A program made the translations under genes and the position numbers. DNA of 64,000 bases from Deltaproteobacteria bacterium HGW-Deltaproteobacteria-13 (GTDB taxonomy: Bacteria > Desulfobacterota > Syntrophia > Syntrophales > Smithellaceae), in the NCBI GenBank assembly GCA_002840555.1, contig PHBJ01000008.1, forward strand, positions 1 to 64,000, read 5' to 3'. Numbering within the stretch: position 1 is the stretch's first letter; each line of letters begins with the position of its first letter. Below, one piece after another: positions 32,207-61,230 of the stretch. The notes under the pieces are model-generated. The model was not told the DNA's origin and made no database searches. It saw only the letters and a list, made by a program, of their open reading frames with translations.

Positions 32207-32209
32207 TGA

Positions 32210-45820: not shown

Positions 45821-45853
45821 TAAATGGTTATATAATTCAAAGGAAACATTTTC

Positions 45854-47176
45854 ATGATCGGAAAGTGGACAAGATTTTTACCGCGCAAGAGAAAAGCGGA
45901 TGTGGACAGAGCCGTCCGGTATATCGTTTCCAGCGCTTATAAAAATGTGCCGTTTTACCGGCGGATTTATGACCTGGCAAGCGTTGATCCTGCAAGCATC
46001 CGCGGCGCGGAGGATCTTCCGCGTCTGCCCATTGTCAGCCGTTTGGATTTGATGGTTGGCGGGCCCGCCGCATATCTGCATCGCAACATTTCTCCCGGCA
46101 AGCTCACGATCAAACACACCACAGGGACCACAGGGACGCCGGTGATTGTTCATATGAACAAAAGGGAGGAAGCCTTTCGCAAGATAACAATCCTTGATGC
46201 GTTTCAGCGTAATGGCCGCCTGACCTGCCCGTTGACCATTATCGATGTGGGAGGGGAGGTAAAGGATTCTGCCACGCAAATTGAACAGCGGATCGGACCG
46301 GTCAGGATTATCCGGCTTTTCCGCACAATGCCCATGGAGCAGCAGATAGATGTTTTAACCCATTCAAGGCCTGCGTTGATCAATGGACGTCCTTCGGCTT
46401 TGTGGCAGCTGGCCAATGCTCTTCTTGAAAAACGAATCGATCCGCCCACGCCCAGCGTAATTAACACGGGCGCGGAAATGCTTTTTGACAATGTCCGCGA
46501 GTTGCTTCAAAATGTTTTCGGCTGCCGGGTTGCCGATAACTACAACTGCGAAGAGGTTGGAAACACGGCCTGGCAGTGTCCGTCCCATACCGGCAGGATG
46601 CACCCGAATATGGCAACTGTCTGGATCGAAACAGTTGATCAGCAGGGAAATCCCGTTCCTGCGGGCAGCGAAGGACGTCTTCTTGTCACCAATATATACA
46701 ATTCCTCCATGCCGTTCATCCGCTATGAAACGGGAGATAGAGGAACGCTTATGCAATCGGGGCATTGCCAGTGCGGATTTAATGGTCCGGTTATGCGTCT
46801 GATGGAGGGGCGCAATGAAAACTTTATCGTATTGCCTGACGGAAGGGAGATTACACCAAGGCTCATGTATGAGGTCATAAATTCCGCGTTTCCTCATGAT
46901 GATCCTCGCTGGAACATGATCGACGCCATACGCATGTTTCAGATCATTCAGGAAGCGAAGGACCTGATTGTGGTCAAGGTTGTCCCGGGGCCGGCCTATT
47001 CAGAATCTCTGTGGCGCGCTGTTGAAGAGAACCTTAAGCGTCTGCACCCCGCAATGTTCCTGAAAGTAGAAATAGTCAACGACCTCAGGCCTGAACCAGG
47101 TAAAAAGTTCCATCAGGTGCTCGGCAAACTCAACAGCCGCTGGAGGCGGGAGCGGGAAAATCAGTCAGATAAATAA
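45854..47176 (+). CDS. CapK/PaaK-type adenylate-forming enzyme (copy 1)
   Basis: The 440-residue protein belongs to the phenylacetate-CoA-ligase-like branch of adenylating enzymes (CapK/PaaK): A-Y-K-N-V-P-F-Y-R near 30-38, the ATP loop T-T-G-T-T-G-T-P-V near 88-96, N-C-E-E-V-G-N near 228-234 and Y-E-T-G-D-R-G near 284-290. Such proteins activate a carboxylic acid as acyl-AMP (then CoA or another acceptor) and are common in surface-polysaccharide loci. It is 33 bases downstream of the DNA-repair-like gene and converges on the DegT gene with 12 bases between stops, so it borders the assembly cluster. Confidence 0.85.
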   Translation: MIGKWTRFLPRKRKADVDRAVRYIVSSAYKNVPFYRRIYDLASVDPASIRGAEDLPRLPIVSRLDLMVGGPAAYLHRNISPGKLTIKHTTGTTGTPVIVHMNKREEAFRKITILDAFQRNGRLTCPLTIIDVGGEVKDSATQIEQRIGPVRIIRLFRTMPMEQQIDVLTHSRPALINGRPSALWQLANALLEKRIDPPTPSVINTGAEMLFDNVRELLQNVFGCRVADNYNCEEVGNTAWQCPSHTGRMHPNMATVWIETVDQQGNPVPAGSEGRLLVTNIYNSSMPFIRYETGDRGTLMQSGHCQCGFNGPVMRLMEGRNENFIVLPDGREITPRLMYEVINSAFPHDDPRWNMIDAIRMFQIIQEAKDLIVVKVVPGPAYSESLWRAVEENLKRLHPAMFLKVEIVNDLRPEPGKKFHQVLGKLNSRWRRERENQSDK

Positions 47177-47188
47177 ATGAACTGTCTG

Positions 47189-48403
47189 CTATTCAGCGGC
47201 AGCCGTCATAACCTTCTCCACCGCCTTAGCCATATCGTTCATATCCTCATCAGATAAAGTCGGATGTATAAAAAACATCAGGGCGGTTTCTCCCAGTTCT
47301 TTGGCAACGGGCAGCCGGTTCTGCGGTTGAAGGCCTTGAGTGGTAAAAGCTTTTTCCAGGTATATTTCGCTGCAGCTTCCGGTAAAGCAGGGAATGCCTT
47401 CAGCGTTAATCGCGGCAATGACGCGTTCCCGATCCCAGCCGGATTTAAGTTTTTCAAGTTTTACGAAAACGTAATATTTGTAGTAGGAATGGAAAATGTA
47501 GTCAGGCGGCGTGGTCACGCGCAATGCCGGAATTTTCTGGAAAGCTTTTGTCAAAATATCGGCATTGCGTCTGCGTATTTCAATCCATCCGGGCATTTTA
47601 CGCAGTTGAACCCTCCCGATAGCCGCCTGTATCTCAGTCATTCTTAAGTTCGTTCCGAATGATTCGTGCAGCCATTTAAATGACGGGCCGGGTTTGATGC
47701 CATTATTACAAACGGCGTCGTAACTTTTACCGTTATCTTTGTATGACCAGAGCTTCGACCAAATGTCCTTGTCTTTCGTCACCACCATTCCCCCTTCACC
47801 GCCGGTGGTCATGATTTTATCATGACAAAAAGAAAAGGCTGCGGCATCGCCAAAAGACCCTAAGGGACGGCCTTTATAAAAAGCGCCTGAAGCCTGCGCG
47901 CAGTCTTCGATTACCGCAAGCCCGTGTTTTTTTGCCAGAGCCATGATCTCATCCATTTCACAGGGCCATCCCGCCAGATGAACCGCGATGATGGCGCGCG
48001 TATGTTCAGTAATGACTTTTTTAATAGTGTCAGCCGTTATGGTCTGGCTGTTGCGATCCACATCGGCAAAAACAGGTCTTGCTCCGCGCATGACGACACA
48101 ACTTGCCGAAGCGAAATAACTGCGGGGTGTTACGACGACCTCATCACCGCGTCCAATATTCACCGCGGCCAGCGCGGCCTCCAGAGCCACCGAGCAGTTC
48201 ATGACGGCCACCGCAAAGTTCACACCGACGCTTGCCGCAAATTCCGTCTCCAGCAAACGGCCTTCCTCGCCCGTCCAGTAATTCACCTTGCCCGATTGAA
48301 GCACTCCGTTTGCAGCCGCCATTTCATCATCACCAAAAAACGGCCAACCGGGAAAAGGGTTAGTCCGTATCGGCAAACCGCCACTAATTGCCAGGTCTTT
48401 CAT
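47189..48403 (-). CDS. DegT/DnrJ/EryC1-family sugar aminotransferase
   Basis: The 404-residue PLP enzyme of the DegT family adds an amino group to keto-sugars bound to nucleotides. Visible motifs are W-x-G-x-E-G-x-x-L-E-x-E-F near 43-55, I-E-D-C-A-Q-A near 165 and the lysine in S-F-C-H-D-K-I-M-T-T-G-E/G (Lys196; most members have S-F-x-x-x-K). Full length. It is the last gene of the minus-strand assembly cluster, 26 bases after a NeuD-type acyltransferase, the same pairing as in acetamido-sugar synthesis (PglE-PglD). No nucleotide-sugar dehydratase is present here. Confidence 0.92.
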   Translation of the reverse strand: MKDLAISGGLPIRTNPFPGWPFFGDDEMAAANGVLQSGKVNYWTGEEGRLLETEFAASVGVNFAVAVMNCSVALEAALAAVNIGRGDEVVVTPRSYFASASCVVMRGARPVFADVDRNSQTITADTIKKVITEHTRAIIAVHLAGWPCEMDEIMALAKKHGLAVIEDCAQASGAFYKGRPLGSFGDAAAFSFCHDKIMTTGGEGGMVVTKDKDIWSKLWSYKDNGKSYDAVCNNGIKPGPSFKWLHESFGTNLRMTEIQAAIGRVQLRKMPGWIEIRRRNADILTKAFQKIPALRVTTPPDYIFHSYYKYYVFVKLEKLKSGWDRERVIAAINAEGIPCFTGSCSEIYLEKAFTTQGLQPQNRLPVAKELGETALMFFIHPTLSDEDMNDMAKAVEKVMTAAAE

Positions 48404-48429
48404 TTGTTTTTCCTTTTGCTCAATCTTTT

Positions 48430-49089
48430 CTAATATTTCTTCTCGTCCATTTCATAAAATTTCGCCGGCATTCCTTTGGCCATCATATTGGGCGGAACAT
48501 CTTTTGTTATTAAAGCGCAAGCGCCGATCACCGCGCCGTCACCGATCCTGCAAGTCAGGACGGTCGCTCTTAACCCGATAAAAACATCGTTCCCAATCTC
48601 CGTCCCGCCTGAAATAACGACATGCGGATTCATATGAACATAATCGCCGATCACTGCATCATGACCGATGCCGACGAAACCATTACTGATGAAGAAATCG
48701 CCGATCACCGCATCAGGCATCACGATGCAAAACCTTTGCATAATGGCCCCTTCGCCCATTTTGGCCCATTTACTGAGCGTGACTGTCGGATGGATGACAC
48801 TCATGAATTTCCCGCCCATCTTTTTCGCTTCTTCGACCATTTTACGCCGCCACACCGGACGGCCAATGGCGGCGACCAGGCGCACTTCATTAAAATCCAC
48901 GTTTTGCAGATATGACAAATCTCCCAGCACCGGAATGCCATGGATCAAATTTCCAGCATCTTTGCTTCCACCATCATAGACAAAACCAATCGGTGCAATG
49001 CTGTCTTCCGTGTGCGTGTTAATGACATCAATTGTGTCGAGTACTTCCCGTGCAAATCCACCGCCGCCCAGCATAATTATTTTTTTCAT
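48430..49089 (-). CDS. NeuD/PglD-family sugar O/N-acyltransferase (copy 1)
   Basis: The 219-residue protein has an N-terminal Rossmann-like PglD_N domain (K-I-I-M-L-G-G-G-G-F-A-R-E-V) and a C-terminal left-handed beta-helix made of hexapeptide repeats (from about 95: V-H/T-L-S-K-W-A-K-M-G-E-G-A-I-M, then N-G-F-V-G-I-G-H-D-A-V-I-G). These enzymes acetylate (or acylate) amino or hydroxy groups of nucleotide sugars. Next to the DegT aminotransferase, the product of that enzyme is the natural substrate. Confidence 0.9.
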   Translation of the reverse strand: MKKIIMLGGGGFAREVLDTIDVINTHTEDSIAPIGFVYDGGSKDAGNLIHGIPVLGDLSYLQNVDFNEVRLVAAIGRPVWRRKMVEEAKKMGGKFMSVIHPTVTLSKWAKMGEGAIMQRFCIVMPDAVIGDFFISNGFVGIGHDAVIGDYVHMNPHVVISGGTEIGNDVFIGLRATVLTCRIGDGAVIGACALITKDVPPNMMAKGMPAKFYEMDEKKY

Positions 49090-49373
49090 AAGTTAATGAC
49101 TCTTTAAGAAATATTGTAAAATAATTTCAAAGGATTGCTTCTTGTTTTTCGAGTATGGAACCGGGGATCAATTCCGTTGATTTATTATTTTGACGACAGC
49201 AATTAATATATAAAAATTTCCTCGGTAACAGGATGTCCGGGGCATGATTTACTTAATGATCTATTCCACCACACGTTCATCCCCTCCTAAAGACGGGATA
49301 TACATTTTTGCGTTTTATGTTGCAAGAGCAAAAAAAAACGTAAAAAACGTCACTATTTCCTTCATGATTTGAT

Positions 49374-50033
49374 TCACCAGGATTTCTTTTCTTTTTGTTT
49401 CTCCCGATATTCCGATAAGTAAATACTGACTGTTCCCGGCAAGACGGCAACATCTTTTGCTTTCAGGACCTGAAAGAAAGTTCGAAATATTATTTTTACA
49501 TCCTGTTGGAAAGAAATATTTTCGACATATTTCACGTCCATTTCCAAACGCTCGTCCCACTGCAAATAGTTTCTGCCGTTAATTTGAGATAATCCGGTAA
49601 TTCCCGGGCGGACCGTGTGACGCAAGTGTTCCCTCTTGGTATAGTATGGCAAATAACCCATGAACAGCGGACGGGGGCCTACAAGACCCATGTCACCCCT
49701 GAGGACATTGATCAGTTCGGGCAATTCATCAATGCTGGTCTTGCGCAGGAAAGCGCCAAGCCGCGTCAATCTTTGCGCATCGGGAAGCAGGTTGCCGTCA
49801 TCGCCCTTCCGGTCGGTCATGGTGCGGAATTTGAAAAGGGTAAATGGCTTTTCTTTCCATCCCGGACGTGTTTGCCGGAATAAAACCGGTGCGCCTAACC
49901 GAATTCGTACAAGACACGCAACGATGGCCAATAAAGGCAATAACACGATGAGGGCCAAAACAGTCAAGACAAGATCAAAGAGGCGCTTGCCGCGGGCAGG
50001 ATAAAAATTGTTCTTATTATCGTCAGTTGACAT
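49374..50033 (-). CDS. Polyprenyl-phosphate sugar-1-phosphate transferase (PglC/WcaJ-type)
   Basis: The 219-residue membrane protein initiates glycan assembly by moving a sugar-1-phosphate to undecaprenyl phosphate. It shows a re-entrant N-terminal helix (K-R-L-F-D-L-V-L-T-V-L-A-L-I-V-L), P-V-L-F-R-Q-x-R-P-G near 50, F-K-F-R-T-M near 66 and the catalytic region R-K-T-S-I-D-E-L-P-E-L-I-N-V-L-R-G-D-M-x-L-V-G-P-R-P near 97-122. This is the minimal single-helix class. Its start overlaps the end of the NeuD copy 2 gene by 11 bases. It implies that the cluster product is lipid-linked. Confidence 0.93.
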   Translation of the reverse strand: MSTDDNKNNFYPARGKRLFDLVLTVLALIVLLPLLAIVACLVRIRLGAPVLFRQTRPGWKEKPFTLFKFRTMTDRKGDDGNLLPDAQRLTRLGAFLRKTSIDELPELINVLRGDMGLVGPRPLFMGYLPYYTKREHLRHTVRPGITGLSQINGRNYLQWDERLEMDVKYVENISFQQDVKIIFRTFFQVLKAKDVAVLPGTVSIYLSEYREKQKEKKSW

Positions 50034-50673
50034 GAGATGAATCATTTTTTCTGATAAATTTAGCCGGGACGCCGGCCATCACGGATTCTTGATCAATATC
50101 CTTAATCACAACACTTCCGGCGCCGATAATTGTATCGCGCCCGATATTTTTAACACCTGTCATAATGGTAGATCCCATTCCAATAAATACTCTTTCGGCG
50201 ATATGAATTCCGGCGCCGACTCTGCATCCATTGGCGATAAAGCAACCTTCACCTATTTTAGTATGATGAGCGACGATGACTTCGGGACTGATGATCGAAA
50301 AATCACCGACTTCCGCTTCCGTCCAAATGTAGGTAAGAGCGTGGATAATGCAGGCCTTACCAATCCGCGCATATTTACTGATTTCCGCCCGGGGATGAAT
50401 CAAACAAGGTATGACGCCGCCTTTTTTTATGATTTCTTTGGACTTTGCCACGTGAATTTCGTTATTCCCTATGGCAACGACATAATTTGCGTTAGCCCGG
50501 ATATCCTTTTCATAATCCAGTTTGCCTAAAACCGGCTTTCCCAGAACTGATTTTCCGGTCTTGCTTAAATCATCATCATAAAAACCGGTTACAGAATATC
50601 CGCAGACTTCAGCTAAATCCGCGATAACTGCGCCGTAAGTTCCCGCCCCGACAATAAATATATCTTCCGCCAC
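50023..50673 (-). CDS. NeuD/PglD-family acyltransferase (copy 2)
   Basis: The 216-residue protein has the PglD_N fold (I-F-I-V-G-A-G-T-Y-G-A-V-I-A) followed by hexapeptide-repeat beta-helix (I-S-P-E-V-I-V-A-H-H-T-K-I-G-E-G, then V-F-I-G-M-G-S-T-I-M-T-G and I-I-G-A-G-S-V-V-I-K-D-I). About 219 vs 216 residues, it is clearly a paralog type of the protein at 48430, but the sequences are only distantly similar, suggesting different substrates. It lies directly upstream of the sugar transferase gene and overlaps it. Confidence 0.9.
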   Translation of the reverse strand: MAEDIFIVGAGTYGAVIADLAEVCGYSVTGFYDDDLSKTGKSVLGKPVLGKLDYEKDIRANANYVVAIGNNEIHVAKSKEIIKKGGVIPCLIHPRAEISKYARIGKACIIHALTYIWTEAEVGDFSIISPEVIVAHHTKIGEGCFIANGCRVGAGIHIAERVFIGMGSTIMTGVKNIGRDTIIGAGSVVIKDIDQESVMAGVPAKFIRKNDSSHVN

Positions 50674-50716
50674 GCTGTTTGAACTCCTTCAAATGGTTCT
50701 ATTTTAAGTAAAGCAA

Positions 50717-51754
50717 TTAATTTTCATTGTATAATGCCAGTACTTTTTCCTTCATTCCGCTGTTTTCACAACACTCCCAATGTGTTTTGTCCCAGTTATC
50801 ATTCCCTTCAAGCAATGCCGGTCCATTATTGGTGATGACAACATCCCATCCAACCGTTCTGACGGAGGGAACCACCATGGCGGCTGATTTGATCATGTCT
50901 AATATATCCTGCCAATAGGGGATTTGTAAACCTGGAATTGGAGAGTTTGTAACCGGATGATTTTCAAGATCTCTGCTTTTAAATGGATTTTTAAAAACAC
51001 CTTTCCCGATAACCACACCCGTATTAAGATCAATCAATGCGGAAATGCCGCCGGCGTCAAAATTGTCAACGGGTTTATCAAATCCTATTCTTAGAATCGC
51101 GTAGAGCAGTTCAACATCGCCATTGGCGTGTAAAAATGATGTTATTCTAACAGTATTTAACGAACCGGGATAAAGGTTCATCAAAATATGATGCTGCGGC
51201 ACATAGGCTTCAGCCAAGGTGTAACCTTCTTTAATTTTCCGGGAAATCATTTTTTTTAACGGCACATTTGAAATCGACGGATCGATTCCGGAATAATCAA
51301 CATCAAAAATAAGAACGGCACTGCCGACCTGACCCAGGGGATCTTTTAGCACGATTTTGTCCGGTTTTTTTTCAGAAATCCATTTCAGAAAATCATTGAA
51401 CGAGTCGGTTTGTGAAATATTCCAATTTTCATGCAGGACAAATGATTTGAAATTAATATAAAAAAGATTTTTGTTTTTGAAAATTTTCCGGTCATTTTTA
51501 TGATTAAATTTATTTTGAAATCTGTACATCAGCAACCGGCTTGTGTATCGGCTCCTTTCCTTCGCCGTCATTTCAATAAATTTATAATAAAAATAATCGA
51601 GCGGCATGGTTTCATGCCTGAAGATGCAAACAAAGATATCAACCAATATTTCAAGTTTCGTTTTTTTATAATAAACGGCTGATTGGGAAAGAAAGAAAAG
51701 AAATCTGTTTCTATCTGTTTTTAATATGCAATAAAAAAAATAAAGCAGTTTCAT
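50717..51754 (-). CDS. Sugar-transfer-associated ATP-grasp enzyme
   Basis: The 345-residue protein matches the ATPgrasp_ST family: K-D-P-L-G-Q-V-G-S-A-V near 138, N-L-Y-P-G-S-L-N-T-V-R-I near 193, V-D-N-F-D-A-G-G-I near 230, V-G-W-D-V-V-I-T near 305 and L-L-E-G-N-D-N near 317-323. ATP-grasp enzymes couple a carboxylate, through acyl phosphate, to an amine or thiol. The family is found in polysaccharide loci and is thought to attach amino acids to sugars. It overlaps the preceding CapK gene by four bases (translational coupling). AT-rich N-terminus with many Phe/Tyr/Lys. Confidence 0.85.
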   Translation of the reverse strand: MKLLYFFYCILKTDRNRFLFFLSQSAVYYKKTKLEILVDIFVCIFRHETMPLDYFYYKFIEMTAKERSRYTSRLLMYRFQNKFNHKNDRKIFKNKNLFYINFKSFVLHENWNISQTDSFNDFLKWISEKKPDKIVLKDPLGQVGSAVLIFDVDYSGIDPSISNVPLKKMISRKIKEGYTLAEAYVPQHHILMNLYPGSLNTVRITSFLHANGDVELLYAILRIGFDKPVDNFDAGGISALIDLNTGVVIGKGVFKNPFKSRDLENHPVTNSPIPGLQIPYWQDILDMIKSAAMVVPSVRTVGWDVVITNNGPALLEGNDNWDKTHWECCENSGMKEKVLALYNEN

Positions 51755-53076
51755 GTCCGGTCATCCCCGGGATCAGGTTGATAGTTACAAATGATTGTTC
51801 TGAATTTTCCGGATGAATGATGCTGTATTTTATCCACATGATCGATCTTTACAACGGCATCCCGGCCGACGAGTTGCCTGATTGTATCATGGAAATCATT
51901 ATCATCATAAAGGCCGCGGACACCTTCCAGCTTTAAAGTAAAATCTTTGAGACTTTCCTGAATAAACTGAAATCGGGGCAAACGATCATAGGGACGGAAT
52001 TTCAATGCGACGAAGTGAGGGCTGATCTTCTTGCCCCGCGTGTCGTAAATAATATCCGCCTTTCTACCGGATATTTCCGTCAGGACCTTTTTACCCGAAT
52101 ACTTCCCTTGCTCTTGGGGCATCCCCGCTATGACAATATCTTCCGTGTCATAACGAATCAGCGGCATGGCGTAATTATAAAAATCGGTCAAAACCAGCCT
52201 GGCCGGTTCTCCGTCATCGGCCGGCTCATCGGCATCCAGTCGAAGTGTTTCAAAATAATAATGGGCGGTGTTTAATATGAAATGATCGCCGTCGTTGGGC
52301 TGTTGTGCCAGAAAACCGTTTTCATTATTGGCATATCGGGACACGACGGTGCAACCGAATACTTTCTTAAGCAGGGTTTTGGCATTTGCGTCCAGGCGTT
52401 CAGCGCCGCTTATAACAACGTCAATGCTGAACATGTCCGGCGTATAATCTTGCTGGTCGAAATAATAAGCGATGGCCGCAAGCGATGTCGCGTAACCGGT
52501 CAGACATTTTATGGAATGTTCCTTCCTCAGAATTTGATAGAGTTGCTGCAAAGAGCCGTCGGATAACGAAGAACAGTCGAACATGATCGTGTTATGCGTC
52601 ATTTGCTCCAGTTTTGTCTTTTGATTATCCTTGAACCAGACTCTGGCATACACATGCCTGTATCCCAGCTGAAAGCCGCATTGCTCAAGAAAGTATATGA
52701 GCTCGGCAATAACTCTCTTTCTTTTGGGGTTGTCCTGCAGCATGACAAAACGCTCGCCGGTAGACCCGCTGGTCAGCACTTTATGCAATCGTTTGTTTTT
52801 ATACGCCGATGAAATAAACTGATCATATTTTTCCTTGACCAGACTTTTTTTGATGACCGGAAAGTCCGCGAGGCTTGAATAGTTCTTGAATTTTCCGTAA
52901 AATTCGGTTGTATGAACAGCATGCTTAAGAAGCTTTCGCAAATCATCCGGCGAGGTATCTATTTTCCCTTGAAGCTTTTTTTCTAAATCCAAAAGATTCT
53001 TTCTGACCTGTCCGCCGCGCAACGCATCGAACAGCCAAAACCCGTATCGTCTGATGGCTTCACTAAACATTTTCAT
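51751..53076 (-). CDS. CapK/PaaK-type adenylate-forming enzyme (copy 2)
   Basis: The 441-residue protein has the same fold as the one at 45854 but low direct similarity: V-H-T-T-E-F-Y-G-K-F near 50, the ATP loop T-S-G-S-T-G-E-R-F near 100-108, S-R-Y-A-N-N-E-N-G near 248 and I-R-Y-D-T-E-D near 310. The active-site pattern S-G-S-T-G is typical for acyl-AMP formation. Its stop overlaps the start of the sugar-transfer ATP-grasp gene, which suggests that an activated acid may be handed on. Substrate unknown. Confidence 0.82.
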   Translation of the reverse strand: MKMFSEAIRRYGFWLFDALRGGQVRKNLLDLEKKLQGKIDTSPDDLRKLLKHAVHTTEFYGKFKNYSSLADFPVIKKSLVKEKYDQFISSAYKNKRLHKVLTSGSTGERFVMLQDNPKRKRVIAELIYFLEQCGFQLGYRHVYARVWFKDNQKTKLEQMTHNTIMFDCSSLSDGSLQQLYQILRKEHSIKCLTGYATSLAAIAYYFDQQDYTPDMFSIDVVISGAERLDANAKTLLKKVFGCTVVSRYANNENGFLAQQPNDGDHFILNTAHYYFETLRLDADEPADDGEPARLVLTDFYNYAMPLIRYDTEDIVIAGMPQEQGKYSGKKVLTEISGRKADIIYDTRGKKISPHFVALKFRPYDRLPRFQFIQESLKDFTLKLEGVRGLYDDNDFHDTIRQLVGRDAVVKIDHVDKIQHHSSGKFRTIICNYQPDPGDDRT

Positions 53077-53109
53077 TTATTTTTACACTTTCGCGCAATT
53101 CTTTTTATA

Positions 53110-54303
53110 TTAAATATCAAGTCCCAGAAAAGCCAACTTGCGTTCATTTTCCAGAACGTTCCGGCGCGTCTCGCCCAGAATCATTCCCGTCAAAAGAGGG
53201 CGTTCCCGGAAATTCGGTCCCGCTTCCGGGTCGCAACTGCCCAGCGGCAGCAAAATGCCCTGAGCCATTGCCCGATATGCGGCATTCAGCATATCCCGGT
53301 AGTTGCCTTTGCCTGTCAGGCGGCGCAAACGAATCACCGGCTTTCGATAGTGTTGATAAACGCTTTTTGAGTAGAGCCGCGCCGGTGAGGAACCGTTACC
53401 GCGAAAGTTCAAATCAAAAACTTTGCAAGGTCCGTCTTCCGGCACAGCCACGTCCATACCCAGGATACCGTAGAATCCCCGTTCATAAGCGGCACGAACG
53501 ATCGATGTGCCGGCCTCAACAGCATCGGTTGGACAAACAGCTTCAGCCTCAAGCCAATTGCCGTGGTAAATGCCCTGCTCATCGCTGACCTGTTCGGTGA
53601 ATCCCAGAAAGTCGATGCCGCCATTCGCTGTCACACAGTAATGGAGACACAGATTTCTTAGAATATTCATATATTCCTCGACCACTACATACCTGCAATC
53701 TTTGAAATATTCAGCGGCTTTTTGGATGTCGCTGTTGTTGCGGCAGATACGAACGTCAATACCGCCGCCCGTGGTTTCATCCGTGACCGCCTTGATGACG
53801 ACCGGTGTACTCCATGACCGGCTGCGGCCGGCAATCTGATCAACGGATACAATTTTGCGGATGGGAAGGTTGCTTTTCGGAACGAGGTTTTCCAGATTCG
53901 CCTTGTTATTGATATAGGAAAGCACCGAAGGCGCGATCCAGCATCTTTGAGGCGGCATCTCAGACGGTGGATGAACATGCTGCACCACCATCTTGGGTCC
54001 GTCCTGGCAAAGATTTTGAAGCAGTCTTATATAGTCGGCCACATCGAAATAACGATGTATTTCAGACGGCACTTGAAAGCCGGTGTCGCGCAATAGATTT
54101 AAAGCGTCAGGTGTGGATACTGACGCGGCGCATACAATCGGCATATCACCGAGAATAGTCAGCATGGTCGCTGTCATCATGTCCAGCACCATTTCGCCGG
54201 GTGGCTGCCAGCGCGTGGCATGGGGCGAGGTACGCGCCATAAAAACAAAAGAAGGTCCGTAAATGGAGCTAAATGTCCTTGCAGGGTGAAGCGCCGGATT
54301 CAT
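53110..54303 (-). CDS. ATP-grasp domain protein
   Basis: The 397-residue protein has an N-terminal pre-ATP-grasp-like part, then an ATP-grasp fold: V-V-I-K-A-V-T-D-E-T-T-G-G-G near 167-180 (ATP-binding lysine and Gly loop), Y-V-V-V-E-E-Y near 205 and the metal site V-F-D-L-N-F-R-G-N near 310. These mark a carboxylate-amine or carboxylate-thiol ligase working through acyl phosphate. The substrate is not deducible; such enzymes often add single amino acids. It is the second of two ATP-grasp genes in the cluster. Confidence 0.8.
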   Translation of the reverse strand: MNPALHPARTFSSIYGPSFVFMARTSPHATRWQPPGEMVLDMMTATMLTILGDMPIVCAASVSTPDALNLLRDTGFQVPSEIHRYFDVADYIRLLQNLCQDGPKMVVQHVHPPSEMPPQRCWIAPSVLSYINNKANLENLVPKSNLPIRKIVSVDQIAGRSRSWSTPVVIKAVTDETTGGGIDVRICRNNSDIQKAAEYFKDCRYVVVEEYMNILRNLCLHYCVTANGGIDFLGFTEQVSDEQGIYHGNWLEAEAVCPTDAVEAGTSIVRAAYERGFYGILGMDVAVPEDGPCKVFDLNFRGNGSSPARLYSKSVYQHYRKPVIRLRRLTGKGNYRDMLNAAYRAMAQGILLPLGSCDPEAGPNFRERPLLTGMILGETRRNVLENERKLAFLGLDI

Positions 54304-54384
54304 GATAAAACTCCGATTAAAAATATTTCCGTGAGCAAAGTATTATGTTCGATAACCTGTTGTGACTGTTTGAGGGGATGAATT

Positions 54385-55704
54385 TCAGGTCCCCGTTCCT
54401 TGCCGTCTTATTTTCCATTGCCGTATGGCCACAAAAAGAGGAAACGGCACCCATCGCTTCAATAATCTTTTTATCTCTTCACGCCACGACCAGGCGGGTC
54501 TTGGAAAATATTCATCCACAACAACCCCGGACAACCAATCGAAAAACTGCCGCCATTCCGGCAACATCATATCCCTGTATTGCGGCACTCTTTCCTGCGT
54601 TTCCCGCCAGAATTTTATGCTCGATAGTTGCCACGCGAATGCTTGCTGCCACTCTTTTTTCTCTAAGGCCTCACGGATTCTTCCGGGTGTATCCGCAGCC
54701 ACAACGAAGCCGTGCCGCGAGGGGTCAATTCCCATCAATGCCAATCCGGCTATGGTTCGGGAACATCTTTCGCACAGGTTACAGTTGCCCTCATCCTTTC
54801 CCAGTGTACAAACATTGAGTTTCAGTCCGGGAAAAGAACTTCGGATTTCAGCAATTATTCTTTCCAGTTTTACTTGCCGCTCTTCATCACCGCCGTCATA
54901 AACGGCGTGCGTGCCCTCCCATGCGGTTTTTTCAATCAGCATCGGGTAAGACCCGTCAGGCGGTTCACTTTCCGCGGTGTAGCTTGACGCAATATAAACG
55001 GTGCCGACACCTTCCCGCCAGGTCAGTGGCGCAGATAATCCGAGGAAAATGGCCCCATAGGCTACTTCCACATACCATGAGCGTTGCAGACGGCCCGGAA
55101 AATATGCGTCAAGCGCCCATTGCTGGAGGATATCCAAATAATTTGAAGCGATGACCGAACGCCGCAAACCCATATCTTTTGCCGCTTCAATTTGTGCCGC
55201 GCTTATGGTTTGCCACGCCTTTTCCTGATGCGGCCTTTGTTCGGAACCCCAGATCGAAATCAGCAAGGGGTTTTCCTGCCGATGCCGCAGCGCTGTCGCC
55301 ATCGAATCGACACCCCCCGTAAAAAATGACGCTTTCCGGGAGGAATCACGCGGCAGGTCAGACACTTTCTTTCCAATGTTCACTTGTCCCGCCAAATGAA
55401 TTTGCGGATACAGCGATTGGTAAACGGCTTTGACGCTGTTCATGCTTTCGGCATACGCTACATCCAGAACAGGAATATCCAGCGTACCGTCATAGAACCA
55501 AATAATGGGAGAAATAATTCCGAGGAAAGGGATCGCGGCAATGCCGGGCGGTATATCTTTTACCGGCCCTTCATATCTTACCCAGAGCGGTTCCTCCGCC
55601 AGGAAGCGACGCATAAACGATCCCGCTTCGTAATGATAAACGAAGGTATTATCATTTTTAATTTCCACCGAAGACAACCGGATTTGCTTTGCATCCAATC
55701 CCAT
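54385..55704 (-). CDS. PP-loop ATP pyrophosphatase-type protein
   Basis: The 439-residue protein has a PP-loop S-F-F-T-G-G-V-D-S-M-A-T (TGGVDS at 129-134), the signature of enzymes that adenylate a carbonyl or carboxylate, releasing pyrophosphate. A later N-C-N-L-C-E-R-C motif (near residue 321) is a possible metal or Fe-S site, as in QueC-type proteins. The N-terminal 120 residues are beta-rich and unplaced. Architectural resemblance to MurL (an ATP-dependent UDP-MurNAc-peptide epimerase that pairs with a Mur ligase) is possible but unproven. It lies 66 bases downstream of the Mur/Pth fusion gene. Confidence 0.7.
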   Translation of the reverse strand: MGLDAKQIRLSSVEIKNDNTFVYHYEAGSFMRRFLAEEPLWVRYEGPVKDIPPGIAAIPFLGIISPIIWFYDGTLDIPVLDVAYAESMNSVKAVYQSLYPQIHLAGQVNIGKKVSDLPRDSSRKASFFTGGVDSMATALRHRQENPLLISIWGSEQRPHQEKAWQTISAAQIEAAKDMGLRRSVIASNYLDILQQWALDAYFPGRLQRSWYVEVAYGAIFLGLSAPLTWREGVGTVYIASSYTAESEPPDGSYPMLIEKTAWEGTHAVYDGGDEERQVKLERIIAEIRSSFPGLKLNVCTLGKDEGNCNLCERCSRTIAGLALMGIDPSRHGFVVAADTPGRIREALEKKEWQQAFAWQLSSIKFWRETQERVPQYRDMMLPEWRQFFDWLSGVVVDEYFPRPAWSWREEIKRLLKRWVPFPLFVAIRQWKIRRQGTGT

Positions 55705-55770
55705 ATGATGACCTTTTAATAAGAACTTACTTTTTTACTCCCGGATCACTGCGCCCGCGGAATAATCTCC

Positions 55771-57630
55771 TTAACGCTCTTGTATACACTTTCTTACAAT
55801 ATCCGCCGCTTGTTCGATGACCGGCGCCAGGCGCTCTTCTTCTTTTTTTGAAAATTTCGTGAGCACGATCTGCTTCGGTTTACGCGCGTCTTTGCGTATT
55901 CCGAAATCAAACCATTTCGCTTCACGAGAGTTGTCAAGCCCCTCTACACCCAGGCGAATCCGGGTTATGTCTTCTGTGTCAAAGGCGGAGAGGATTGAAC
56001 GCATTCCCTTATGGCCGGCATCCCCGCCGTTGGGTTTCAGCCTCACATCACCAAAGGAAAGTTTTATGTCTTCGTGGATAATGATACAATTTTTAAAGTT
56101 ACCTCCCATACGCGCCAGGAAACGCTGAACCATGATGCCGCTATTGTTCATAGCCGCTCCCGGTTTAAACAATTGGACGGCTTTGCCATGCAAATTAAGG
56201 GCACAGACCCACCCCTCGGGATGTTTCTTCCACTTGCCGCCTTCGGATTCGGCCAGTTTGTCGAGCACGTGGTAACCCACATTATGGGGTGTGTGATAAA
56301 AACGGAACCCGGGATTTCCCAGCCCCACAACCATGGGGATTCCGGAACTATTCTGCGGACTATCGGGTACAGCCAAAGGTGAGTATCGGGGTGGTTTGTA
56401 CAGTTTGGGACACTGGTCGCAAAACAATTGTGAAGAACACTGCTGAGCCCAGCACTTGACGGGTTTGCTCCTGTCAAGAACCAGCCTGACCAGGTGATCC
56501 TGCTCATTCGTGCCTTTGACCAAAACGAGATCGCCCGGTTTTAATTCATTTCGCAGAAAAGCGGCCGCGTTTTGAATATTGAGAAATCCTCTTATCGAGT
56601 CATTATTTTTATCCCGGCTTCCTCTTAGAGCCCGAAGCGCGTGAGGACCGATAAAAATGACAAGGTCGGCAAATTCATGACATGATTTGGCGAGACTTTT
56701 ATATTTTGGGCCATAATCGCCTTGAGCATCGGAAATCATGCCGATGATAACTATTTTTCTTTCGGCTCGAGCGTCTTTAAGAAAGGCCAGCGGTTCGTTG
56801 ATGGACCAGTAAGGAGCTTTCCAATCGTCCCTGATAAATACCACTCCGTCGTCACCGGCGATCAACTGCATGCGTCCCTCAACGGGTTGAAACTGTTCAA
56901 CGGCCATCATGGCCTTTTCCAAAGGCATATCAGCTGCCAGAGCAATGCCCAGTGAGGCCAGCACCGGAATGGCCATGTGTGTGCCGTGCAATTGTGTCCG
57001 GACTTCGTAGGTCCTGCCTTGATACTCAAAAAGCAATATCAAAGGTTCGGGCCATCGGGAATGAGCTTTGATCAGTCTTAAGGTGGCCCCATCATCTTTT
57101 CCGAACCAGATGATACGCCGGCCGCAGCGTTCTCCTATCGACCTGACAAACGGGTCGTCAATGTTCAATATAGCCGTTCCGCGAGGTGAAAGTCCCGAAA
57201 CAATTCTTTCCTTTTCCGCGGTGAGCGTTTCCATACTCTTATAGGCGGCGAAGTGATCTCTTCCAATCCGGGTAATAACGGCAATATCCGGCCTGAACAG
57301 CCGGACGGTTCTGTCCAGTGTGCCGGGGCCGTACGCGGCCAATTCCGCGACGCAGTATCGATGAGCTTTGCGTATGTGCCAAACTGTAGCCGGAATGGCT
57401 TCCAGGGTGTTACAAGATAAATTTGTTTTCTGGCAAAGACCCAAACCGGCAAGGATAAAGGCGGTCAAGTCCTTCGTTGTCGTCTTACCGGCGCTTCCGG
57501 TGATTCCGATAAAAGTGACATGATGAATTCTTTTGCGGTAAATATTGGCAACGAAACATCTAAGTTCCTGCGGAACTAATTTCTTAAGTTTCGTTGTAAC
57601 CGGTTTAACAAGATTATTCATATTCATCAT
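55771..57630 (-). CDS. Mur ligase-like enzyme fused to a peptidyl-tRNA hydrolase-like domain
   Basis: The 619-residue protein joins two enzymes that are normally separate. Residues about 35-385 are a Mur-ligase core without the UDP-binding domain: G-I-T-G-S-A-G-K-T-T (42-51), L-N-I-D-D-P near 155, V-E-G-R-M-Q near 250 and L-V-K-G-T-N near 371. A four-cysteine stretch follows (Cys393, 398, 404, 407). Residues about 431-619 follow Pth: G-L-G-N-P-G (Asn439), H-N-V-G (His449) and M-N-N-S-G (Asn495). But the positions of E. coli Asp93 and Asn114 are Glu520 and Lys541, so normal tRNA hydrolysis is doubtful. Continuous frame, no frameshift sign. Probably a dedicated amide ligase with a coupled hydrolase or transfer step. 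Confidence 0.8.
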   Translation of the reverse strand: MMNMNNLVKPVTTKLKKLVPQELRCFVANIYRKRIHHVTFIGITGSAGKTTTKDLTAFILAGLGLCQKTNLSCNTLEAIPATVWHIRKAHRYCVAELAAYGPGTLDRTVRLFRPDIAVITRIGRDHFAAYKSMETLTAEKERIVSGLSPRGTAILNIDDPFVRSIGERCGRRIIWFGKDDGATLRLIKAHSRWPEPLILLFEYQGRTYEVRTQLHGTHMAIPVLASLGIALAADMPLEKAMMAVEQFQPVEGRMQLIAGDDGVVFIRDDWKAPYWSINEPLAFLKDARAERKIVIIGMISDAQGDYGPKYKSLAKSCHEFADLVIFIGPHALRALRGSRDKNNDSIRGFLNIQNAAAFLRNELKPGDLVLVKGTNEQDHLVRLVLDRSKPVKCWAQQCSSQLFCDQCPKLYKPPRYSPLAVPDSPQNSSGIPMVVGLGNPGFRFYHTPHNVGYHVLDKLAESEGGKWKKHPEGWVCALNLHGKAVQLFKPGAAMNNSGIMVQRFLARMGGNFKNCIIIHEDIKLSFGDVRLKPNGGDAGHKGMRSILSAFDTEDITRIRLGVEGLDNSREAKWFDFGIRKDARKPKQIVLTKFSKKEEERLAPVIEQAADIVRKCIQER

Positions 57631-57729
57631 AGGTTATTACTCCTGCGGCTTCATTCAACGCTCCGCAGGATCGTATGGAGTCAAATCAGACAGGGCATCA
57701 TTAAATATTCGCTGCCTTTTGACACCCCA

Positions 57730-58782
57730 TTAAGAAATCACAGCCATTGCTTCAATTTCGCACAATAAATTGTCTCTGCATATATCGACGCCGGGTTGGA
57801 AGAGCGTCCTTTCCCGGGGGAATCCCGCCTGATCCAGTATTTGAAAACAAGAGCTCATGTCTTTACTTCTCTTGAGATAAACGATGGCCTGAACCACATT
57901 GGAAAAGCTGCAATTTTCCTGTTTCAAAATCGCGGATATCACTTCCAGCGTAAATTCCATCTGGCTTTTAAAGTTTCCAATATAAACCGATGCGCCTGCC
58001 TTATCTATTGCGGCTGTGCCGCTGACGAATAATAATTTGGATCGGGGAAACCCGGCAACCACGGCACGGCTGAACAATTTTCCATAAGCAGTCGGTTCAT
58101 TCTGCAATGGTGACGATATTTGCTTGACGGTCACATGCTCTCCGGAAAAAGCGCAGAATTCAAAAGCCAGTATTTCGTTGCCGATGATATGGTTTTGAAT
58201 TCCGGTGCTTGCCGGGAGTATTTGATTCGCGGCAGGATTCCATTTCTCAAAGAATTGTTCTCTGGCCTTATTTAATTCCTCATAATCATTTAAAATATCT
58301 CTTATAAAAAGCCAGGTGCGGGCAATCGCCGACTCGCTCATTTGGAAGCCCCGAAGAACTTCGCTGATTTTGTTGAACGCCGTCATGAACGGCCGGCCGC
58401 TGCCATGGCTATCAAATACAGGGGCGCTATACAAAAGATTTATTCCATCAGCCGTAATTTTTATTCCCGTATCACTTCTTGCGACGCTCACTTTTTCTTT
58501 TTCCACTTTTGCCGCAATTGCCGCATATTGAACGGGGAGATCCGGGTGACCGGTAAATATTAAGGGCTTGTTACATCTCAGCGGTGCGAAAGTTCCTGCT
58601 GAAAAATTATTTGCCTGGCTCATCATATCCGGCGGCACAATGATTATTTCCTGTAAAATATACATGTTTTCATTCAATAACAACTCTTTGTGCTCTGAAG
58701 AGTCGTTCTGAAAAACATCGCCCTGGCCGGAAAAAAATTCCAGACAAAACCCATCTTCCTGCAATTTTAAATCTGATTTCAT
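57730..58782 (-). CDS. Chorismatase-like two-domain RidA-fold protein (FkbO/Hyg5/XanB2-like)
   Basis: The 350-residue protein has two RidA-type domains like chorismatases, which turn chorismate into hydroxybenzoate or dihydroxy-cyclohexadiene acids. Shared features are A-R-T-W-L-F-I-R-D-I near 148-157, P-A-S-T-G-I near 185, L-F-S-R-A near 232 and L-L-F-V-S-G-T-A-A-I near 245-254, then C-E-I-E-A at the end. The G-H-E-S motif that follows SGTA-I in FkbO-type enzymes is changed, so activity is uncertain. It could supply an aromatic acid for the activating enzymes downstream. Its start lies 1 base after the previous stop; 99 bases separate it from the Mur/Pth gene. Confidence 0.65.
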   Translation of the reverse strand: MKSDLKLQEDGFCLEFFSGQGDVFQNDSSEHKELLLNENMYILQEIIIVPPDMMSQANNFSAGTFAPLRCNKPLIFTGHPDLPVQYAAIAAKVEKEKVSVARSDTGIKITADGINLLYSAPVFDSHGSGRPFMTAFNKISEVLRGFQMSESAIARTWLFIRDILNDYEELNKAREQFFEKWNPAANQILPASTGIQNHIIGNEILAFEFCAFSGEHVTVKQISSPLQNEPTAYGKLFSRAVVAGFPRSKLLFVSGTAAIDKAGASVYIGNFKSQMEFTLEVISAILKQENCSFSNVVQAIVYLKRSKDMSSCFQILDQAGFPRERTLFQPGVDICRDNLLCEIEAMAVIS

Positions 58783-58783
58783 T

Positions 58784-60112
58784 TTACGCCTTTAAATAAT
58801 CGAAAAAACCAAGATGACCGGTAAAGCAGCAATTGGAGCCATAACCGGCAATCCTTGTTTTGAGAGAGAATCTTCCTTCTTCAATTAAAGCAGCATGGAT
58901 GAAACCGGTACCCGCGGCCAGAAGAGCCTCCCCGTCTTTTGAAGCTGCGATTCCATAGCTGTCCTGCTGACAAATGTGAGGGGATGTTGAAACATCAACC
59001 TTTTCTCCCGGCTCCATTTCAATCATCTTATAAAGCTCCATGGTGGTAGCGTCAATCAGAAATACTTTATCAGGATAACCGCTGACACCGATAAGAGTTT
59101 TCCCCCGATGACGAAAGACGATGTGTGTGGTAATTCGATGGAAATCGGGATGTGAAAATTCTCCCGCCAATTCCGGACCGGTTTTTGTCAGTCGGATTTT
59201 CTTTATCAAGCCGGCGCCGAATATGCCCACCTTAACCCCGATCAGGCCGATATTGTGACAGGAAACATAACAGACGTTCTGCTCCTTGGGATCAAACTCC
59301 ACATGTCCCGCGGTCAGGACCGGTAATTGCCATTCCTCGCCTGTTTTCAGATTTAAAATGAGTATTTTTGACGGGATTAATTTTTTACTTACCTTCCGTT
59401 TTTCAAGCGAAATCGGTTGATTCTGCAATTCGGCAGAAACAATTTCATCAGAATGCAACCCCAGTTCAGTCAAAACAAGAAAGCGGCGATCAGGGCTTAA
59501 CGATATCTGATGCAGAGCATCACTCATATCTCCCTGCCAGATCCGCGTGAGATTTTTTTTCTGAATGGAAAACTTCCATATGGTTACGCGCGTATTTTCC
59601 CGCGGATTGATTAACCGCCGAATGGTATCTTCCATAGGCCAGGAGGCAAACCATATTTCGCCGGCCTTTTGATCAAACCAGTTCGTGGTTGACAGCATTT
59701 CATCGCCGGTTCCCGGATCTACTAATTGAGCGGATCGTGAACTGAAATCTATATGCAGGAAGCGATTAAAGAAGTTGAGTCCCACTTGAATTTGATTATT
59801 GCCAAGAGGAAGATAGCTATGCGGCGCCAGACAATATTGCCACCACTGATTCTCTGTCTGCTCATAAGGGAATTTATTGTAATCTATCGAATGTTTTTTT
59901 CGGGCCGCTGCCCAATGAGAGCTGCATTGATTTTCAGCGTCTTTCAGATTGACCGGCAAAGAAATGACCGATTCTTTTGATGTCGAAAAAAAATAATGAG
60001 TATGAGCCTCTTCTCCCCTGTGCAGGGAGGGACTGATAAAATCAGGAAAATCGAAACCGCTCAAAGAAAACGGTTGTTTAATTTCCGGCACGGTCACATT
60101 GGAATGGTTCAT
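58784..60112 (-). CDS. Unknown protein, likely beta-propeller
   Basis: I do not recognise the family. The 442-residue product has repeated strand units typical of WD/NHL-like propellers: I-S-L-S-P-D-R-R-F-L-V-L-T near 208-220, G-H-V-E-F-D-P-K-E-Q-N-V-C-Y-V-S near 270-285, L-I-G-V-S-G-Y-P-D-K-V-F-L-I-D near 345-359 and G-I-A-A-S-K-D-G-E-A-L-L-A near 392-404. No signal peptide, so probably cytoplasmic; many conserved-looking Trp and His residues. It is the first gene of the cluster transcript and is followed one base later by the chorismatase-like gene, so the two are likely translated together. Confidence 0.6.
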   Translation of the reverse strand: MNHSNVTVPEIKQPFSLSGFDFPDFISPSLHRGEEAHTHYFFSTSKESVISLPVNLKDAENQCSSHWAAARKKHSIDYNKFPYEQTENQWWQYCLAPHSYLPLGNNQIQVGLNFFNRFLHIDFSSRSAQLVDPGTGDEMLSTTNWFDQKAGEIWFASWPMEDTIRRLINPRENTRVTIWKFSIQKKNLTRIWQGDMSDALHQISLSPDRRFLVLTELGLHSDEIVSAELQNQPISLEKRKVSKKLIPSKILILNLKTGEEWQLPVLTAGHVEFDPKEQNVCYVSCHNIGLIGVKVGIFGAGLIKKIRLTKTGPELAGEFSHPDFHRITTHIVFRHRGKTLIGVSGYPDKVFLIDATTMELYKMIEMEPGEKVDVSTSPHICQQDSYGIAASKDGEALLAAGTGFIHAALIEEGRFSLKTRIAGYGSNCCFTGHLGFFDYLKA

Positions 60113-60161
60113 GAATATTTCCTGCGCTGTTAATTTGTAAACGGTTTTGATGATAAACTTC

Positions 60162-61031
60162 CTAGAAAATCAGTTTAAGTTCTTTGGGTAAGACTTTGAA
60201 AGAGAAATGCGACCGTTTTTCTTTCTCCGGATCTCCATTGCGCTGTAATAATTGTTCCGTTGAAGAAGTAATGTTAATTTCCCTTGCTTTATAATATTCC
60301 CCGATCCTGTTTCCTCCTGCAAGAGACGTAGCCAGGGCATAGAGCGTGCCGATGGGGCCCGCTTTAAGTATCAGCAGATGCAGATATCCGTCATCGCATT
60401 GAGCCTGCGGCACAACCTTAAAACCGTATCCGTAATAGGGTAGTTTGGTAATTACGGCGGTTAGGGAGTTGGATGTTGCCACTTCCCGGCTGTCCATTGA
60501 AACACGCAAATCAGCCTTGATGTAACCGTCAAAGAGGATCTTGAATGTTGCCAGACCATAGGCCGTAAACCCGAGCAAATTATTTTCCAGGCATTTATCG
60601 CGTTCCAGCAGGATACTTCCTTCAATGCCAATGCTCGCAAACAAGGCTTTTGTTTTTCCGTCACAGCTGATGGCGTCTATTAAATGTTCTTTCCCCCTTT
60701 GAATTAAAAGAGCGTTTTCTTTCGGACAGCGGGGAAGATTAAATGTGTGACGTAAAACATCTCCCGAACCAAAAGGAAGATAGCCCAGCGGAACTTCTTT
60801 GGAAACATTATTCATGACCAGGGAGAAGGTTCCGTCACCCCCGGCGACAAGCAGGATGTTAACGGTTTTGGAAAGTTCACGGGCACAGCGGGCAAATTCG
60901 TCCGGAGACTTTGTATCAAGCCCTGCTACGGTTGTGTCCTTTAAGATGCGGGCCACCTCGTTTAAAATTTTATGTTTATTGTCGCAGGAACATTTTCCGG
61001 AAACAGGATTCGCTATAATTCCGTATTTCAT
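60162..61031 (-). CDS. Diacylglycerol kinase-family lipid kinase
   Basis: The 289-residue protein has the DAGK catalytic core: N-P-V-S-G-K near 8-13, L-L-V-A-G-G-D-G-T-F near 60-69 (ATP loop) and L-P-F-G-S-G-D-V-L-R near 85-94, where most members have G-T-x-N-D. The C-terminal beta domain includes D-G-Y-L-H-L-L near 216. It phosphorylates a lipid hydroxyl; the DAG/YegS/LCB subgroup cannot be settled. It lies 49 bases upstream of the propeller gene on the same strand and could lead the cluster transcript or be independent. Confidence 0.87.
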   Translation of the reverse strand: MKYGIIANPVSGKCSCDNKHKILNEVARILKDTTVAGLDTKSPDEFARCARELSKTVNILLVAGGDGTFSLVMNNVSKEVPLGYLPFGSGDVLRHTFNLPRCPKENALLIQRGKEHLIDAISCDGKTKALFASIGIEGSILLERDKCLENNLLGFTAYGLATFKILFDGYIKADLRVSMDSREVATSNSLTAVITKLPYYGYGFKVVPQAQCDDGYLHLLILKAGPIGTLYALATSLAGGNRIGEYYKAREINITSSTEQLLQRNGDPEKEKRSHFSFKVLPKELKLIF

Positions 61032-61230
61032 TTAGTCTCACTGCCGCATCGTATTTTTGGCGAATAATCCATTTTTAACTGCGAAACTATAAGGAGCATG
61101 GTTTTTTATGTCAAGGGAATAATGGCCGCCTGTTTATCCTTTTGCTTTGGAATCACCAGTTGCTTTTCGACACCATGGAAAGCATCATTTCCCTGAAAGA
61201 ATCTCTCCGGAACAAAGCGCATTGGGCTTA

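Follow-up and report, generated by a model that had tools for sequence, protein, structure and literature searches.

The 64-kb window analyzed here, part of a 151-kb contig (PHBJ01000008.1) of Deltaproteobacteria bacterium HGW-Deltaproteobacteria-13, contains a block of twelve genes (45854–60112) that is a mobile genomic island, gained and lost as a unit within its genus. The island has a constant core, and related strains swap different ligases in and out of the same three slots. Judging from its genes, the island probably, and by no means certainly, builds a lipid-linked deoxyamino sugar that carries an amide decoration and most likely serves as the initial residue of a surface glycan. The genus of the window is called Smithella here, after relatives deposited as Smithella sp.; Smithella are syntrophic bacteria in close contact with methanogens. 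The class sample comprised 155 genomes (that of the window, G000, and 154 others), and 17 of these belonged to the genus. Three contigs with a chorismatase-like gene carried the deposited names Smithella sp. UBA2180, SDB_sulfate1, and D17; they correspond to genomes G012, G008, and G006 and were counted once each.

Gene content and insertion site of the island

The island genes and their flanks are listed below in the order of transcription of the minus strand, each with its place in the core or in one of slots A to C.

60162–61031, lipid kinase, flanking gene, convergent with the DNA glycosylase gene
45821–60161, no strand assigned, inserted block, from stop codon to stop codon of the convergent flanking genes
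58784–60112, minus strand, prop442, predicted beta-propeller, first island gene, core; low-confidence structure model, no membrane segment
57730–58782, minus strand, chorismatase-like protein (FkbO/Hyg5/XanB2 superfamily), core; predicted hydroxybenzoate former
55771–57630, minus strand, Mur ligase–peptidyl-tRNA hydrolase (Mur-Pth) fusion, slot A; PF08245, PF02875, and PF01195 in one frame
54385–55704, minus strand, candidate PP-loop-type ATPase, slot A; SGGVDS-like motif, poor structure model
53110–54303, minus strand, LdmS-like ATP-grasp amino-acid ligase, core; NF047900, PDB 7r8p
51751–53076, minus strand, CapK1, PaaK/CapK-like adenylate-forming enzyme, core; profile match 65 bits (cut-off 300)
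50717–51754, minus strand, sugar-transfer-associated ATP-grasp (ATPgrasp_ST), slot B; PF14397, 153 bits
50023–50673, minus strand, NeuD1 sugar N-acyltransferase, slot B; TIGR03570, 175.1 bits (cut-off 160.8)
49374–50045, minus strand, membrane sugar-1-phosphate (polyprenyl-phosphate) transferase, core; PF02397 (Bac_transf), 207 bits
48430–49089, minus strand, NeuD2 sugar N-acyltransferase, slot C; TIGR03570, 174.2 bits (cut-off 160.8)
47189–48403, minus strand, DegT sugar aminotransferase, core; PF01041, 316 bits
45854–47176, plus strand, CapK2, second PaaK/CapK-like adenylase, last island gene, core; NF045666, 103 bits (cut-off 300)
45110–45820, DNA glycosylase, flanking gene, convergent with the lipid kinase gene

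The island was recognized from its insertion site. In genomes G013, G015, and G016 this site was empty: the lipid kinase and DNA glycosylase genes met directly, and their stop codons overlapped by 4 bp. A single unrelated gene stood between the two in G004 and G005. The propeller and chorismatase-like genes were present in six of the 17 genomes (G000, G006, G007, G008, G011, and G012). Ten had neither gene; five of these showed the empty or near-empty site, and the site was not readable in the other five (G002, G003, G009, G010, and G014). The remaining genome, G001, held a decayed remnant (L133, G001:C214, 2138–3330) with pieces of the propeller gene, no chorismatase-like gene, part of a DUF362-type protein, and the tail of the lipid kinase. 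A search with the lipid kinase (E 1e-30) matched 11 of the 17 genomes, and nine site neighborhoods were read besides the window; G002, cut by contig ends, was left out, and G006, G012, and G001 were reached via other matches. In strain D17 (G006, L048), the first 30 residues were all that remained of the lipid kinase.

All eleven minus-strand reading frames that a preliminary description of this DNA had reported as one cluster (60112 to 47189) were present with the ends it gave. Their intergenic distances, in transcription order, were 1, 99, 66, 81, 33, −4, 43, −23, 284, and 26 bp, nine of the ten being below 100 bp. The second CapK-like gene, described as converging on the cluster end, was real and part of the unit. 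The idea of one linked set was therefore retained with a larger extent, since the convergent gene is included. It agreed with the insertion at one site and with a core that is still linked in related genomes; in the gene neighborhoods of the relatives, the core genes were grouped and not scattered.

The GC content of the island (46.9%) was compared with that of the left flank (47.4%) and was rejected as an island marker. Scans for promoters (36 vs. 26.1 ± 6.3) and terminators (23 vs. 21.2 ± 3.9) were near chance. The lipid kinase and a short-chain dehydrogenase (60162–62076), upstream of the island, were flanks common to island-free strains. A promoter-like site was found at 61114–61086 (11/12 match), and the two genes could be co-transcribed with the island.

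Constant core and exchangeable slots

Every locus of the genus that reached the core contained the propeller, chorismatase-like (broken in G006), LdmS-like, CapK1, Bac_transf, DegT, and CapK2 genes, and the core order was identical in G006, G007, G008, and G012. The CapK1 gene directly followed the LdmS-like gene in seven of seven loci. CapK2 was convergent with DegT in all four other loci of the genus that reached that side; in G012 a single gene separated the two. This gene (L054, G012:C141, 1202–2416) encoded an unnamed protein with six hydrophobic segments and no Pfam match, possibly a polymerase or a membrane glycosyltransferase. G007 (L067, G007:C9, 2209–4723) and G008 (L049 and L066) carried two genes for radical-SAM proteins between CapK2 and the flanks, of which one had ferredoxin domains and the other was B12-binding. 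Among the loci read that far, the window had neither of them.

Slot A, between the chorismatase-like and LdmS-like genes, held the Mur-Pth and PP-loop genes in the window and an ATPgrasp_ST-family gene (162 bits) in G007, and it was empty in G006 and G008. In G012 the chorismatase-like gene was followed by an unnamed protein cut at 493 amino acids by the contig end, and G011 had a 505-amino-acid relative of it together with the start of an ATP-grasp gene. An AsnB label for these proteins was dropped, as Pfam, NCBIfam, and PDB sequences gave it no support. Slot B, between CapK1 and Bac_transf, contained ATPgrasp_ST and NeuD1 in the window, G008, and G012 (ATPgrasp_ST orthologues of 74 and 78% in G008 and G012), and another CapK in their place in G006, G007, and G033, the last from another genus.

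Slot C, between Bac_transf and DegT, was occupied by NeuD2 in the window and by a carbamoyl-phosphate-synthase-like ATP-grasp plus AsnB in G006 and G007. G012 had an AsnB gene with 83% identity to that of G007 and a frame broken near its end. In G008 a chimeric reading frame started with 134 residues of AsnB and continued as NeuD2; an intact NeuD2 gene adjoined it. This chimera is a direct trace of slot replacement. The fixed machine of five ligases that had been proposed at first was not supported: the Mur-Pth and PP-loop genes occurred in no other island copy read, and the sugar ATP-grasp and both NeuD genes are swappable. The 284-bp gap of the window (49090–49373) was searched for an AsnB remnant, and there was no protein-level trace (E 1e-5), only short DNA matches with a longest run of 40 bp.

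Sugar genes, ligases and the propeller-chorismatase pair

Profile matches bore out the earlier labels of ATPgrasp_ST, the two NeuD enzymes, Bac_transf, DegT, the other ATP-grasp (LdmS-like by its profile), and the CapK-like enzymes. The nearest structure to DegT was 7l7x (E 1e-137, 462.7 bits), far ahead of the next best (180.5 bits). 7l7x is Pcryo_0638, an aminotransferase acting on UDP-4-keto-6-deoxy-GlcNAc in an O-antigen diacetamido-sugar pathway (PMC8040287). The nearest relatives of NeuD1 and NeuD2 were acetyltransferases of the perosamine, VioB, and pilin-glycan types: NeuD1 matched perosamine N-acetyltransferase 4ea7 (E 1.5e-26), and the best structure for NeuD2 was pilin-glycan acetyltransferase 4m98 (E 1.7e-22). 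Bac_transf had one hydrophobic stretch (residues 18–57). The homology of DegT, NeuD, and Bac_transf supported the view, put forward in the preliminary description, that the sugar genes resemble the amido-sugar start of a glycan on a lipid carrier.

A PglF/CapD-type 4,6-dehydratase was encoded elsewhere in the genome (G000:C18:126230-127075, 384.8 bits), adjoining chain-length-, export-, and PHP-type-looking genes (labels read from sequence); the family was also matched in 14 of 14 control genomes, so its presence alone says little. In G033, a set of LdmS, CapK, CapK, ATP-grasp (45%), and DegT lay with polysaccharide genes, namely WecB (above cut-off), a WcaI-like gene (below cut-off), and another glycosyltransferase. 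This context is the strongest argument from beyond the island itself that the product is a surface glycan. A Wzx flippase label for one further G033 gene was dropped, as NCBIfam yielded no match for it.

The LdmS-like protein matched NF047900 with 210 bits, which did not reach the equivalog cut-off of 475, and PDB 7r8p with E 5e-47. Six other genomes of the class sample had orthologues of it (50–73%), in one case a stretch of only 85 amino acids at a contig end; the 27% relatives in G028 and G078 were left out of this count, and G533, from another family in the phylum sample, stood outside the seven. In CapK1, the motifs TSGSTG, RYxT, and SGK were invariant in nine of nine aligned rows.

The Mur-Pth fusion was confirmed by Mur and peptidyl-tRNA hydrolase profiles in a single frame. 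Its Mur part was MurF-like, with the middle (PF08245) and C-terminal (PF02875) domains and the P-loop GITGSAGKTT. It lacked the N-terminal UDP-substrate domain: the P-loop lay at about residue 43, and the genome's own MurF had about 80 further N-terminal residues. The Pth part scored 129.6 bits against TIGR00447 (cut-off 100), and a separate Pth gene was also present in the genome. Loss of the active site of the Pth domain was considered and dropped, as the apparent Asn-to-Lys change also occurred in the genome's own Pth; HED instead of HDD was the remaining difference. Orthologues were found in two of 59 relatives, as the fusion in G041 and as a Mur-only gene in G033; neither contig carried any other gene of the island. 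The Mur-only gene of G033 adjoined an LpxL-like gene, and the propeller-chorismatase pair and the LdmS set lay on two further contigs. It is possible that this Mur works with the island set in G033.

For the PP-loop gene, the label of a PP-loop ATPase was kept for its SGGVDS-like motif, which we take to be a PP-loop signature, and was weakened to a candidate, as Pfam and NCBIfam named no family and the structure model had a predicted local distance difference test (pLDDT) score of 47. Argininosuccinate synthetase and TrmU were among the weak best matches of this model, all of which had E values above 0.001; the model was too poor for a fold assignment, which was dropped. The other 154 genomes contained two distant matches (27–31%) and no close relative. 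Two relatives at 27–28% retained Cys 308, 311, and 314 as well as the Gly-Val-Asp part of the motif.

The first two island genes travelled together. The propeller and chorismatase-like genes were adjacent in nine of nine genomes of the class sample that had both (the fragments of G001 were left out of the propeller count). All seven of the 155 genomes with an LdmS orthologue were among these nine; the overlap had a hypergeometric P of 1e-10 with kinship ignored, all nine being of one family. In a phylum-wide sample of 395 genomes, the propeller was found in four (E 1e-6), the chorismatase-like protein in five (E 1e-15), and LdmS in four (E 1e-20), and three matches of each belonged to the genus of the window. 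The pair adjoined CapK2 in G069. In G033, it lay on a different contig from the LdmS set and was still adjacent. In G021, from another genus (L130, G021:C50, 11566–18749), it stood beside a TupA-like ATP-grasp, a radical-SAM/SPASM protein, ATPgrasp_ST, and a GT2 transferase. The pair suggests a hydroxybenzoate component of the product.

The label "propeller-like" held in part. The structure model matched many beta-propellers (Z 16–17, rmsd 3.4–4.4 over about 250–280 residues), but its confidence was low (pLDDT 52), and neither Pfam nor NCBIfam named a family at E 0.001. The best Pfam match was a 7-bladed lactonase (E 0.25), and the best PDB sequence match reached only E 0.46. His 98, 201, 270, 286, 321, and 330 were invariant in ten of ten aligned sequences, one of them at 23% identity. 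In the low-confidence model, His 201, 270, and 330 each occupied the second position in a predicted strand and lay 60–69 residues apart. We infer that this His set may form a metal site. A propeller relative of 23–25% was found near a contig end in locus L064 (G494:C15, 6724–10210), followed by two flagellin-like proteins (read from sequence).

The second protein matched the chorismatase profile TIGR04444 over nearly its full length with 57.6 bits (E 1e-15), well below the cut-off of 325, and PDB 5ag3, aligned as Hyg5 by residue numbers, with E 3e-10. Its Glu342, equivalent to Hyg5 Glu334, was kept in eight of eight aligned orthologues, and all 12 rows of a wider set had it too; a ninth orthologue, the broken one of G006, was left out of the alignment. 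Glu334 is catalytic in Hyg5 (PMC7170507). The earlier label of a chorismatase-like protein was kept in this form only: the near full-length match and the catalytic Glu supported it, but the score did not. A small tree, flagged for long branches, placed the protein on its own branch.

Gly, Gly, and Cys residues are reported to mark the CH-II subfamily of chorismatases, which forms 3-hydroxybenzoate (3-HBA). G194, G255, and C335 of the island protein were kept in eight of eight aligned orthologues. However, they were also found in all seven wider relatives aligned, two of which stood beside ubiquinone-type genes, so the residues were dropped as proof of 3-HBA formation and do not tell 3-HBA from 4-HBA. 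These relatives were one annotated chorismatase, four plasmid proteins annotated as Rid family or hypothetical, and two proteins from other genomes of the phylum; the alignment took five of 11 plasmid matches and both non-Smithella phylum matches. On Acidiphilium plasmid pACMV3 and an Acidithiobacillus plasmid (L109/L114), a chorismatase-superfamily gene lay between SCP2 and two U32 genes on one side and pdxS/pdxT on the other, with transposase genes near; we take this to be a mobile oxygen-independent ubiquinone set. On a Parabacteroides distasonis plasmid (L108, 1510–10024), such a gene, annotated as a Rid family hydrolase, was part of a gene run that also encoded a porin, an imelysin, a di-haem oxidoreductase, and a haemerythrin.

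Proposed product and alternative explanations

A route to the lipid-linked sugar can be proposed from these genes. The membrane 4,6-dehydratase encoded outside the island would make UDP-4-keto-6-deoxy-GlcNAc, DegT would aminate carbon 4, the resulting amine would be acylated by a NeuD enzyme, and Bac_transf would transfer the sugar phosphate to a polyprenyl carrier. The CapK adenylases, with ATP-grasp, Mur, or PP-loop ligases, might make unusual acyl or aminoacyl groups and attach them as amides. The chorismatase-like enzyme and its constant propeller partner could supply hydroxybenzoate, which one CapK may activate. As ligase slots are swapped between strains, the decoration would vary and the sugar core would stay constant. 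The substrates, the order of the steps, and the surface location are predicted here: the sugar steps from homologues, of which only that of DegT is close, the decoration from gene content, and the aromatic group from a single source, the propeller-chorismatase pair.

A more specific version is possible and somewhat doubtful. Here, a polyprenyl-linked 4-amino sugar would bear a hydroxybenzoyl or hydroxybenzoyl-aminoacyl cap. Chorismate would be the source of this cap, converted by the chorismatase-like enzyme together with the propeller, which would be a new His-rich enzyme that perhaps depends on a metal. Exchange of whole ligase families in the three slots would give every Smithella strain its own amide chemistry at the surface. 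If the proposed role of the island is true, surface sugars would be diversified by the exchange of whole amide-forming enzyme families in fixed slots. It would also give a concrete hypothesis of aromatic decoration and an uncharacterized propeller that travels with a chorismatase-like partner.

Several observations weigh against a decorated glycan sugar as the product. Genome G021, which is 100% complete, contained the pair and gave no match to LdmS at E 1e-10, so the two halves of the island can part. In strain D17 (G006), the chorismatase-like gene was in two pieces with its middle missing, and the other core genes were open. The pair of G033 lay apart from the glycan genes (neighbors read from sequence). 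In the window's island, Bac_transf was the sole glycosyltransferase that family scans recognized, they revealed neither a flippase nor a dehydratase, and a test for a Wzx/Wzy-type cluster recognized no polymerase there. The island copy of Bac_transf was also not the sole one, with two more in the genome.

Two other explanations were weighed, each of them unlikely. In the first, the product is a small molecule that is soluble and secreted, namely a conjugate of hydroxybenzoate and an amino acid that is formed via CapK and ATP-grasp and glycosylated with the amino sugar. Chorismatases feed 3-HBA into natural products (PMC7170507), and in a pigment cluster one of them is reported to be partnered by an AMP-ligase (PMC3949708); LdmS-type ligases, by the family name of NF047900, join two amino acids. 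However, Bac_transf has a membrane-like segment and belongs to a family that, by its names, loads polyprenyl phosphate, and the related set in G033 lies with polysaccharide genes. No transporter, carrier-protein, polyketide synthase (PKS), or nonribosomal peptide synthetase family was found in the island by family scans. The second is that two modules share the site: the pair would make an aromatic compound, for example a quinone precursor or a signal, and the part from LdmS to CapK2 would decorate a glycan. The joint insertion of both parts at one site in Smithella, the presence of the pair in seven of seven LdmS genomes, and its position next to CapK2 in G069 argue against this. In its favor are the separate pair of G033, the pair without LdmS in G021, and the relatives of the chorismatase-like protein beside ubiquinone-type genes on the Acidiphilium and Acidithiobacillus plasmids.

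It is quite improbable that the island is an initiation cassette for protein glycosylation, for example of pilin or flagellin, and not for a polysaccharide. The best structure match of NeuD2 to a pilin glycosylation acetyltransferase, the PglD-like chemistry, and the distant propeller relative beside flagellin-like genes in G494 (read from sequence) would agree with it, but no oligosaccharyltransferase or target gene was seen among the genes scanned, which covered part of the window. A chance neighborhood of unrelated same-strand genes, to which the one 284-bp gap might point, is extremely unlikely given the precise insertion, the empty sites, and the shared core order of G006, G007, G008, and G012.

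Deoxyamino-sugar cassettes and sugar-linked ATP-grasp ligases are already known, and the decorated-sugar reading can be compared with them. The O-antigen diacetamido-sugar pathway of Psychrobacter cryohalolentis (Pcryo_0612/0638/0637) has its counterparts here in a DegT that closely resembles Pcryo_0638, an N-acyltransferase of the NeuD type beside DegT (NeuD2 matched the acetyltransferase structure 7l7y of this pathway only with E 5e-14, others being better), and a PglF-type dehydratase in the genome of the window. In contrast, this dehydratase is outside the island, which has CapK, ATP-grasp, Mur, and PP-loop ligases, a chorismatase-like enzyme, and a propeller in addition. ATP-grasp amidoligases of sugar-transfer operons (PF14397), reportedly described by Iyer et al. 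in 2009, resemble the island in having ATPgrasp_ST beside sugar transferase and acyltransferase genes, whereas the island swaps several ligase families in defined slots of a conserved frame. With FkbO/Hyg5/XanB2 chorismatases, the island protein shares the superfamily, the catalytic Glu, and the characteristic Gly, Gly, and Cys; it differs in its score (58 bits vs. 325), its own branch, its propeller partner, and an island in which no PKS family was found. Full-length ATP-grasp similarity (27–28% to staphylococcal proteins) connects the LdmS-like protein with the L-aspartate-L-methionine ligase LdmS, but it scored less than half of the equivalog cut-off and was followed by CapK in all seven loci. 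The Shewanella sfmABCDE flagellin-modification operon (PMC3765264) is also a small operon with an ATP-grasp gene and decorates a surface structure; its PseI-like and acyl carrier protein-reductase genes had no counterpart recognized in the island.

In the open-licence PubMed Central (PMC) literature, no description was found, among the matches listed, of a conserved island that has both exchangeable ligase slots and a chorismatase-like enzyme coupled to a propeller. The terms Mur ligase and peptidyl-tRNA hydrolase fusion came together in no open-licence PMC paper. Chorismatase and polysaccharide both occurred in ten papers there, in none of them together in the title or abstract as listed, and "hydroxybenzoyl" was absent from the ten matches listed, of 264, in a further search of the same literature.

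Elsewhere in the window (31028–32938), an inosine monophosphate (IMP) cyclohydrolase gene of the PF07826 type, presumably the archaeal type, adjoined a separate 5-aminoimidazole-4-carboxamide ribonucleotide (AICAR) transformylase gene (PF01808), with no fused purH there.

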